Shown here piece by piece: positions 58,613-64,000 of a stretch of 64,000 nt of DNA. The stretch is from Dryocola sp. LX212 (GTDB lineage Bacteria > Pseudomonadota > Gammaproteobacteria > Enterobacterales > Enterobacteriaceae). Both the position numbers and the translations under genes were made by a program. Where the stretch lies: NCBI GenBank assembly GCA_041504365.1, contig CP167917.1, forward strand, positions 2,294,001 to 2,358,000, in the 5' to 3' direction. Each line of letters opens with the position of its first letter. Position 1 is the stretch's first letter. The notes below the pieces were generated by a model. The model was not told where the DNA came from. It made no database searches and worked only from the letters and a program-made list of their open reading frames with translations.

Positions 58613-58767
58613 TGTTTTACGGATCCGTGGTTTTGGTGTCACGGAGTTATAAAACAGTCTGATGACATAATTATGACGGCTAAAGGCGGTCTCCCCCAGT
58701 GCGCTGTCTCTTAGTCACAACTCACTCCGGTCATACGTCAGGATTGATCTGTTAACCGGCTGGTTTT

Positions 58768-59005
58768 CCGTTCACCCGACCGTCTGGTTATCTCTGCTAC
58801 CGTTGCGAACCGTGAACGTGTCATGGGGAATACGCCATCCCCCTGACAACCCCGGCGCCCGGCAAATAAATCGCCGCTGAAGCGGTAAACTCCGGTTTTT
58901 ACCCAACATGCAGGGTCGTTCGCGATTCGTTCCCGACGATCGCTCTCTCACGTTGTTCCCGACAACGTGACCCTGCCTGAAGGGCAAAAACCGGAGCGAT
59001 TTAAG
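58768..59005 (+). repeat. Structured repeat, copy A
   Basis: A chain of hairpins: GTTCAC/GTGAAC closing stem; GTCA-GGGG/CCCC-TGAC hairpin (58820-58847); CCGCT/AGCGG; then a long outer stem CTCCGGTTTTT (58890-58900)/AAAAACCGGAG (58986-58996), an inner stem GCAGGGTC/GACCCTGC (58910-58917, 58969-58976), and inside it two hairpins, GCGAT..ATCGC with TTCCCG in its loop (58922-58943) and CACGTTG/CAACGTG with loop TTCCCGA (58949-58969). The sequence GCGATTTAAGCCGG follows. Compared with copy B, stems differ by paired changes while loops are identical. Confidence 0.8.
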
Positions 59006-59122
59006 CCGGGAACAGGGTGTCGCTTTGAGTTAACTATCGCATCAGAAATAGCATCGCTTTAAAACCTACAGCGACATCGGAGGTGGGACATTCATGAAAG
59101 TTGACGCGAGGGTGTTGGGTCC

Positions 59123-59360
59123 GGCTTAAATCGCCTCCATTTTTGGCTTCATGGCCGGGTCCAGCCGTCGGGAACGGCTGGAGGTTGTGATCGTCGGGAA
59201 CGAATCGCAACCGACCCGGACAGGGAGCCAAAAATGGAGGTTTACCGCCGCAGGTGGCGATTTATTGCCGGGAGTCGGGAGCCCAGAGGGTGTGACGGCG
59301 AACACCCTCTGGACGTTCACCGGTTCGGCAGCAACATATGCCACCTGACGCAAAGTGAAC
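59123..59360 (-). repeat. Structured repeat, copy B (inverted)
   Basis: Read on the reverse strand it repeats the architecture of copy A: GTTCAC/GTGAAC; an 11-bp perfect hairpin CCAGAGGGTGT/ACACCCTCTGG (59283-59312); CGCC/GGCG; a 15-bp outer stem (59134-59148 with 59226-59240); inner stem CCGGGTC/GACCCGG; hairpins GTTG..CAAC (59184-59211) and CCAGCCG/CGGCTGG (59161-59181), both with the TTCCCG-type loop; then GCGATTTAAGCCGG. Orientation is opposite to copy A, tail to tail. Confidence 0.8.
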
Positions 59361-59434
59361 GGAATCTTCTCGATCTCGCCAGTAACTGACTCAAAGATCT
59401 ATATAAGAGACAGCCTGTGCGGGGGAGAAAATAA

Positions 59435-60235
59435 TTACAGGCCCCGCTCGCCGATTAAGCGCGCCAGCGCGCTGTCGTTTTGCAGCAGCTGCCAGGCATT
59501 CATGACCTGCACGGGGATCTCAACCTGGACGATATAATCGCGGCCCTGCGGTCCGTATCCCTGCAGGTCGTCACGAATTCGCGGGATTTCCCCCAGAATT
59601 AACGAGATGTAGCGGGCAACGGGCCATAGCCCTTTCTGCGGAGGGGAAAACTGGCTGCTGCGCTCGTCGGCAACCATCAAAGGCACGATGCCCGGCCAGC
59701 TTCGCCAATCTGGCTGCTGGCTTTCCCCCTGCCAGGCGCGTTCAAACGTTGCCAGGGTGCGGCGCTGCATGGTGGGATCCTGAATCACGATGATTCGCGC
59801 GGGCGCCATTCCCTGCTCTGCAAGGCGTTCTTTCGTGAAGCTCGCGTTCTCGCCGCAGTTGGTAGATTTCTCTTCGGTAACGATACGCTCGGCGGGGATT
59901 TTCCAGAACTCCGTGGCGATGTCTTTGATGATCGCCGCCTCCGCACGTCCGGTGGTCGGTATGGTGTTATAGCGTGGATGGACGGCAATAGCGCCGTAAA
60001 GAAACGTGGTTGAATGGCCAATCCCACCTGTAATCAGCAAAGGCAGTTCGCTGGCCGCGGCAAGCTGGCATGCGGCATCGATGGTGGGGATCACGGCGTT
60101 ACCCGCCAGCACGATGAGATCGGCGTCATCCGCCTGGGGAGATTCAACAAAATCATTGCGGGCCAGCCACTGCCCCAGGGTGTTAATCGCCCCGATGGTT
60201 GTTGCCTGTAAGGCCGGGAAAGTTGTCGTCAACAT
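59435..60235 (-). CDS. ydcF: YdcF, DUF218 family protein
   Basis: A 266-residue protein, the same length as E. coli YdcF and similar throughout (VLAGNAVIPTIDAACQLA near 45-62; GGIGHSTTFLYGAIAVHPRYNTI in parts near 70-92; STNCGENASFT near 125; QDPTMQRRTLATFERA near 150). The structure of YdcF has a Rossmann-like fold that binds S-adenosylmethionine; the reaction is unknown. Its 3' end lies 22 bp from the IS50-ended element. Confidence 0.9.
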   Translation of the reverse strand: MLTTTFPALQATTIGAINTLGQWLARNDFVESPQADDADLIVLAGNAVIPTIDAACQLAAASELPLLITGGIGHSTTFLYGAIAVHPRYNTIPTTGRAEAAIIKDIATEFWKIPAERIVTEEKSTNCGENASFTKERLAEQGMAPARIIVIQDPTMQRRTLATFERAWQGESQQPDWRSWPGIVPLMVADERSSQFSPPQKGLWPVARYISLILGEIPRIRDDLQGYGPQGRDYIVQVEIPVQVMNAWQLLQNDSALARLIGERGL

Positions 60236-63424: not shown

Positions 63425-64000
63425 TTATTTCCCCTGCAGAACGATTTCCGCCGCCTTTGCCAGCACGTCGCGGCGCGCTTCGGCATCCTGCTTATGCTGG
63501 GTGAAATAGACGGTCAGCACCTGCGGAGCTTTTTGCGGCGGCCAGATCACCGCCACGTCGTTGGTGGTGCCGTAATCCCCGGCGCCGGTTTTATCCCCCA
63601 CCACCCAGCCTTCCGGCGTGCCCGCGCGGATACTTTTCGCGCCCGTCTGGTTCTGTTTCATCCAGTTCTGCAGCAGCTGTTTTTGCTCTGCTTTAAGGGC
63701 ATTGCCCAGCACCAGCTTTTGCAGGTTGGCGGCCATTGCCTCCGGCGTGGTGGTATCACGCTCGTCGCCTGGAATGGCGGTGTTCAGCTCCGGCTCCCAG
63801 CGGACGAGGTGGGTTTTACCGTCCCCTAAAGTTGCGGCAAGCTGGGCAATGCCTGACGGCCCACCAATTTCTTTAAGCAGGATATTCCCGGCAGTGTTAT
63901 CGCTCCATTCAATTGCCGCTGCTGCGATATCCGTCATTTTCATGCCCTTCCCGACGTGCTTCTCCGTCACGGGGGACCAGCTCACCAGGTCGCTTTGCTG
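63425..64000 (-). CDS. Class A beta-lactamase (5' end beyond window)
   Basis: The last 191 codons of a class A serine beta-lactamase gene. Visible motifs are the SDN loop (WSDNTAGN), the omega-loop EPELN with the deacylating Glu and Asn (near position 166-170 by Ambler numbering), and KTG in VGDKTGAGDYGTTND. The signal peptide and the catalytic SxxK lie outside the window. The omega-loop and GDYGTTND tail resemble the chromosomal extended-spectrum enzymes of enterobacteria (CTX-M, OXY, and relatives) more than TEM/SHV. The position after KTG is Ala, where CTX-M has Ser. The stop lies 53 bp upstream of the trg promoter. Confidence 0.9.
   Translation of the reverse strand, partial: QQSDLVSWSPVTEKHVGKGMKMTDIAAAAIEWSDNTAGNILLKEIGGPSGIAQLAATLGDGKTHLVRWEPELNTAIPGDERDTTTPEAMAANLQKLVLGNALKAEQKQLLQNWMKQNQTGAKSIRAGTPEGWVVGDKTGAGDYGTTNDVAVIWPPQKAPQVLTVYFTQHKQDAEARRDVLAKAAEIVLQGK

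Follow-up and report, generated by a model that had tools for sequence, protein, structure and literature searches.

A dispersed pseudoknotted repeat of Enterobacteriaceae whose fold may be maintained in DNA

The window, i.e., the whole 64,000-nucleotide stretch of the Dryocola sp. LX212 genome analyzed here, contains at positions 58704–59413 a 710-bp dispersed element with an inverted pair of 244-nt structured arms. Arms of this type, approximately 245 nt long, are scattered through intergenic regions in genomes of the family, frequently as two unlike arms in inverted orientation, and the arm fold is maintained by Watson–Crick replacements without preference for G-U over A-C. Comparison of the sequences favors folded DNA over a one-strand RNA for the arm, and our preferred, still tentative reading, with a probability of about 0.45, is a non-autonomous, REP-like mobile DNA element. 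The arm would work as folded DNA, either single-stranded at replication forks or as a cruciform; a trans-acting enzyme would bind it via hairpin H1 and the exposed TCC loops, and would move or copy it; strict pairing would be kept, as the DNA must fold and either strand may fold. The features in the window are as follows.

58704–59413, no strand assigned: complete, putatively mobile element, 710 bp, with ends CTGTCTCTTAGTCACAACT .. AGATCTATATAAGAGACAG (from the copies in the source genome and in G065, and from the empty site)
58766–59364, no strand assigned: inverted double-arm unit, TTCCGTTCAC .. GTGAACGGAA, seen in other genera and in copy L005, which lacks the outer ends
58766–59009, plus strand: arm A (alignment of the arms; match of covariance model R1)
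58769–58818, plus strand: arm A hairpin H1 (CGTTCAC/GTGAACG); both-side changes in 6/7 pairs in the wider set
58819–58848, plus strand: arm A hairpin H2; both-side changes in 8/11 pairs
58834–58856, plus strand: arm A pseudoknot, H2 loop GCC (58834–58836) with linker GGC (58854–58856)
58859–59009, plus strand: arm A closing stem P3 (58859–58873 with 58997–59009), enclosing hairpin H4 (58874–58885) and the junction
58918–58947, plus strand: arm A hairpin H7, loop with TCC
58949–58969, plus strand: arm A hairpin H8, loop TTCCCGA; both-side changes in 7/7 pairs
59121–59364, minus strand: arm B (alignment of the arms; match of covariance model R1)
59314–59361, minus strand: arm B hairpin H1 (structure mapped from the alignment)
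59282–59313, minus strand: arm B hairpin H2 (structure mapped from the alignment)
59274–59296, minus strand: arm B pseudoknot, H2 loop GTC (59294–59296) with linker GAC (59274–59276)
59183–59212, minus strand: arm B hairpin H7, loop with TCC
59161–59181, minus strand: arm B hairpin H8, loop TTCCCGA

The first-pass annotation had placed two inverted copies of a stem-loop at 58768–59360; the stems are indeed there, at the positions quoted, and the repeated element is longer (58704–59413). The stem letters differ between the copies, as had been described: the TTCCCGA loop of H8 is flanked by CACGTTG/CAACGTG in copy A and by CCAGCCG/CGGCTGG in copy B, and the sides of the H2 hairpin are TGTCATGGGG/TCCCCCTGACA and TCCAGAGGGTG/CACCCTCTGGG. 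Complementary 28-nt stretches, also with unlike letters in the two copies, are formed by 58890–58917/58969–58996 (86%) and 59134–59161/59213–59240 (89%). Of the shared blocks initially taken as unpaired, GCGATTCGTTCCCGACGATC contains an inner hairpin, the first letters of GCGGTAAAC pair as the 3′ strand of H4, and GCGATTT..GCCGG provides the 3′ strand of P3, the closing stem. The stems of the initial description stand; the 5′ hairpin H1 and the pseudoknot between the H2 loop and the linker had not been named in it.

The common structure of 32 non-redundant arms consists of H1, H2, the closing stem P3, H4, a junction with H7 and H8, and the H2-loop/linker pseudoknot. This set (186 candidates, 54 selected by regular expression, 45 within the length range, 32 non-redundant) was aligned without a structure model. 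Both-side changes are seen in 28 of 57 pairs (236 cells, which are non-independent events, since the arm sequences are related; 0/500 shuffles were as high), and 94.8% of cells are paired, compared to 34–43% after sliding the partners; of the five measures, only the number of further pair types fails to exceed the shuffles in this set (457/500 as high). For 133 distinct arms (135 rows minus identical ones), aligned to the covariance model and hence leaning to its structure, the number of further pair types is above the shuffles (0/500 as high), both-side changes occur in 49 of 53 pairs, including six of the seven H1 pairs, and 91.8% of cells are paired, compared to 40–42% with partners slid. 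In a phylogenetic null test of our own design (40 simulations), 12 column pairs have E ≤ 0.1; nine of them are base pairs of H2 or H8, and three are outside the structure. Covariation over 133 arms, with H2 and H8 beyond the phylogenetic null, supports the reading as a mobile DNA fold. The early idea that the fold is kept rather than the letters thus holds for a large arm family, in both alignments and in the null test, and the covariance-model check that had been proposed, performed with R1, yielded further arms, with covarying pairs exceeding the shuffles.

The pseudoknot covaries as well: columns 73–93 are paired in 32/32 arms, as CG, UA, or AU. TCC is present in 105/108 H8 loops and 101/106 H7 loops, which also supports the mobile DNA-fold reading. 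Both the TCC loops and the pseudoknot (paired throughout at its variable pair) speak for a shape that is probably recognized. These features bear on the main rival explanation, a fair one though in our estimate unlikely, that the arms are relics of template-switch repair, with the fork using one stem side as the template for the other, which would keep stems perfect without any function; the mechanism is described in PMC8794818. Template switching accounts for one-step Watson–Crick replacements without G-U steps, and for clustered changes at a fixed locus, such as the one common to G151 and G387 (L242/L250), where four H7 pairs are replaced and one A-C mismatch is present, at a flank identity of ~91%. 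However, conserved TCC loops, the long-range stem P3, and a covarying 3-bp pseudoknot are unexpected from local stem repair alone, and in RNase P stems from the same order, G-U still accounts for 11.4% of the covarying standard pairs. The reading as a mobile DNA element is, in turn, weakened by the G151/G387 loci, because compensated changes continue there in unmoved copies, which would also be expected from template switching or from a host function. Orthologues in G023 and G168, ~99% identical within the element and also around it, have diverged too little to be informative.

G-U is tolerated in an RNA fold, whereas A-C is not; on the opposite strand G-U becomes A-C, hence the two are equivalent for a fold whose relevance lies in DNA or in both strands. 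Covarying pairs of the 133 arms comprise 4426 Watson–Crick, 64 G-T, 78 A-C, and 286 other mismatched cells if two edge pairs (the outermost H2 pair and the loop-closing pair of H7) are excluded, as in the main count, and 4480, 96, 78, and 306, respectively, if both are included. RNase P RNA, the one aligned control and itself an RNA, yields 1106 Watson–Crick, 142 G-U, 6 A-C, and 22 other cells in 28 sequences of the same order (30 loci, two dropped as short at contig ends). In the 32-arm alignment, covarying H2 and H8 pairs comprise 464 Watson–Crick, no G-U, and ten mismatched cells; the only G-U cells of H2/H8 there, six in number, are in the outermost H2 pair. Because G-T and A-C are about equally rare in covarying arm pairs, it is apparently in DNA, or on both strands, that the pairing counts, with RNase P RNA as the sole comparator. 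Unlike RNase P RNA, the arms have no G-T excess, which supports the mobile DNA-fold reading, and our confidence in DNA is slightly lowered, since all controls of this test are RNAs. A one-strand RNA as the full account is disfavored, given 64 G-T vs. 78 A-C cells in the arms and 142 G-U vs. 6 A-C cells in RNase P; hence, of the two possibilities offered by the first-pass annotation, a structured RNA and a single-stranded DNA, it is the folded DNA that is favored.

In minimum-energy folds of the 99 arms of 225–260 nt (of 133), G-U pairs constitute 5.3% on the drawn strand and 6.7% on the opposite strand, and in their shuffled counterparts 10.0% and 12.3%, respectively. The fractions for the two strands are 11.6% and 9.7% in RNase P, and 10.3% and 7.8% in 19 sequences of the CsrB family (shuffles, 14.2% and 11.2%), the latter being used in this fold check only. 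The predicted folds, obtained without an alignment, in part agree with the G-U/A-C balance against a one-strand RNA.

Rfam models yielded nothing at cut-off in the window, and the element has no match to TwoAYGGAY at E ≤ 10. The fold had been thought absent from known RNA families; this is true for the window itself, with no related model at E ≤ 10, whereas relatives of the arm overlap Rfam TwoAYGGAY on the opposite strand. Among 17 arm loci compared with TwoAYGGAY (RF01731, clan CL00106), two exceed the cut-off of 43 bits (L182, 48.1; L019, 44.6) and three are weaker; the K-12 arm scores 30.9 bits. Similar to the arm core on the opposite strand, TwoAYGGAY has a stem enclosing two adjacent GGA-loop hairpins. 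In contrast to TwoAYGGAY, the arm is longer (H1, H2, and the pseudoknot), dispersed, and often arranged in inverted pairs, the window copy gives no match, and G-U is not preferred on either strand. On the TwoAYGGAY strand, the window loops read CGGGAA rather than AYGGAY; AYGGAY loops occur in other arms, e.g., CATCCATG in 16/108 H8 loops. PMC2864571 lists TwoAYGGAY, from gamma-Proteobacteria, Clostridiales, and human gut, as probably RNA, which weakens the DNA reading.

CsrA binding has been proposed for TwoAYGGAY (PMC4333381). Applied to the arms, this idea would make the opposite strand an RNA whose two GGA-loop hairpins per arm sequester CsrA; we regard it as improbable. It is consistent with the published hypothesis, with the near-universal GGA (TCC on the drawn strand) in the H8 and H7 loops, and with the TwoAYGGAY matches above. 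Still, G-U is again not preferred on the opposite strand, where 64 to 96 G-T and 78 A-C cells exchange roles; the window has CGGGAA loops and no TwoAYGGAY match; and the single promoter-like site in the element and its flanks is at 59407–59435, with none in the spacer between the arms.

Turning to the element as a mobile DNA, four further copies in the source genome span most of it, and fragments are also present; L002–L004 are near-complete copies, while L005 lacks the outer ends. In G065, of the same genus, copies are present elsewhere, and the genes flanking the window locus are found without the element (the copy search across other genomes, including G065, scored two candidates per genome). 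The empty site in G065 is a palindrome, GTCTCCCCCTGTACGGGGGAGAC, and comparison with it reveals a repeated CC(A/T)GTGCG, 8 bp with one mismatch, flanking the window element; in the other copies, read by eye only, the flank repeat is not clear. In the source genus, the arm pair is enclosed in a 710-bp element that has inverted CTGTCTCTTA at its ends and a palindrome as its insertion site, and the dispersed copies together with the empty site support mobility. For the double-arm unit without outer ends, a clean empty site was not obtained at the loci compared. A CTGTCTCTTAGTC hairpin also adjoins arms of G151 and G387, so that the outer ends may be native to the element rather than borrowed. In the same two genomes, at L180, L181, L197, and L198, a hairpin starting with (C)TGTCT(CT)TAGTC and similar to the outer end of the window element directly precedes the arm.

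The inverted CTGTCTCTTA ends, possibly Tn5-like, and the short putative target repeat at insertion may resemble those of IS50/Tn5-like MITEs of the IS4 family. The target repeat of IS50/Tn5-like elements is 9 bp, whereas that in the window is 8 bp, and no autonomous partner with the right-end pattern was seen in the source genome (G000): with up to three mismatches, this pattern has six places there, all within element copies, and none beyond them. REP/BIME palindromes, 20–40 nt long with a GTAG-type tag next to them, are moved by TnpA-REP (RAYT). Like them, the arms are dispersed intergenic palindromes, mostly 3′ of genes, and REP-like or other palindromes take the site of the arm in sister species; unlike them, the arm is about ten times longer and multi-branched. 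The Y1 transposase was found in 6/15 arm-bearing genomes and in 3/15 other genomes searched, and is absent from G000 and eight other arm-bearing genomes of the 15; as it does not track the arms, mobilization by RAYT is unsupported. The mobile-element reading is weakened, because neither the Y1 search nor the right-end pattern in G000 revealed a mobilizing enzyme. An autonomous copy between widely spaced inverted arms was also considered, and in the ORF lists of G011 and G140, the only source used for it, there is no obvious transposon gene. Integron attC sites are recombination sites recognized as folded single strands, with structure kept over sequence, and the arm is similar in the latter respect.

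A pattern for H1, CCGTTCAC-N25-50-GTGAACG-N5-RGG, matches in 41/198 genomes of the family, with at most 39 places in one genome; the reversed pattern, used as a control, gives 0 in the genomes listed. Searching with covariance model R1 added arms that score 61–117 bits, from less closely related genera within the family; matches are present in at least 20/295 genomes in an R1 search and in at least 3/274, the source genome included, in a further one, no more than seven candidates being scored per genome in either. Outside the family, matches are weak (22–42 bits) and may reflect chance or a remote relationship. Among the stretches fetched, seven additional genera of Enterobacteriaceae have inverted double-arm units of 389–601 bp with unlike arms; shorter, internally deleted double-arm units also exist, as do single arms. 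A past pairing of the two arms with each other as one palindrome, suggested at the outset, is therefore not needed.

Blast with the window element itself as the query gave no match among E. coli, phage, or plasmid records. With L023 (genome G081), an arm of more typical sequence, matches were obtained in E. coli and in 12 plasmid-collection records, some of which (several) are chromosome-sized, and none in phage records. It is found in 5375/5426 E. coli genomes, with a median of three places; one place covers at least 80% of the arm in 1434 genomes, and elsewhere chiefly the core is matched. With the K-12 form as the query, at least 80% is covered in 3289/5426 genomes. In MG1655, the arm lies between yohP and dusC, with no annotated feature there. 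Of 40 rows spread along the ranking of the K-12-form search, 15 match in two pieces (69–70% cover); in the three such rows fetched (L333, L334, and L336), the yohP–dusC arm is inverted relative to K-12 (L282), with opposite orientations in different E. coli lineages. The inverted arms are 88.6% identical to that of K-12 over 272 bases, and two H2 pairs are changed from C:G to A:T. A simple flip does not account for this, since the letters between the arm and the genes differ too. The two orientations at one E. coli locus support the mobile DNA-fold reading.

A wider claim is that the repeat family, including Rfam TwoAYGGAY, consists of long pseudoknotted DNA structures and not RNA, which an enzyme recognizing the folded strand would move or copy, and which are widespread in enterobacteria including E. 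coli K-12; we consider it possible and rather doubtful. If it is true, a family that a public database lists as candidate RNA, along with its proposed CsrA role, needs re-reading as DNA, and a common E. coli repeat, unannotated at the one K-12 locus checked, offers a tractable model of mobile DNA that is read by its structure. The G-T vs. A-C balance is a simple test that could separate conserved RNA folds from DNA folds in covariation data. The stem-loop families that PMC2267715 found in E. coli are named there as PU-BIME, ERIC, BoxC, and Eco-1; searches of a limited literature collection gave no paper that treats the arm as DNA or as inverted pairs.

As for gene context, among 37 scored loci (39 sampled, two dropped for lack of two flanking ORFs; some of the 37 are identical to or orthologous with one another), the flanking genes are convergent at 22, tandem at 14, and divergent at one. 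The K-12 locus was scored as tandem, as yohP (27 aa) is below the ORF limit; by the annotation it is convergent. At one intergenic site in the genus of G041 (L314–L319), five sister species have other or REP-like palindromes instead of the arm, as if palindromic repeat families replace one another there. Such placement, the replacement by other palindromes, and the two orientations of the yohP–dusC arm might point to a bidirectional 3′-UTR element, entered by convergent transcripts, which fold and terminate or protect mRNA ends, so that both strands must pair. This is, in our estimate, the least probable of the explanations: the arm is far more elaborate than a terminator, the TCC loops are on one strand only, the two terminator-like matches in the element are at chance level, and the placement is also explicable by insertion into palindromes after genes.

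Several minor observations concern the arms and their neighborhoods. In L020 and L022, sub-threshold matches of naRNA4 (RF02564), presumably REP-derived, flank the arms. In the window, a minus-strand ORF at 63425–63985 resembles, by eye in translation, part of a class A beta-lactamase. A four-hairpin module of ~70 nt interrupts the H7 loop in arms from several genera, and it has no match in E. coli (L252 copy as the query) or in plasmids (L106 copy). Its places are:

L009, 1428–1508: in the H7 loop
L121, 261–341: in the H7 loop
L106, 252–338: in the H7 loop
L251 and L252, 757–840: in the H7 loop
L021, 1386–1472: in the H7 loop
L079, 1356–1437: elsewhere in the arm

Finally, L275 (G002) contains at 958–1732 five head-to-tail units of 104–106 bp that comprise just H1 and H2; a complete arm comes after them.
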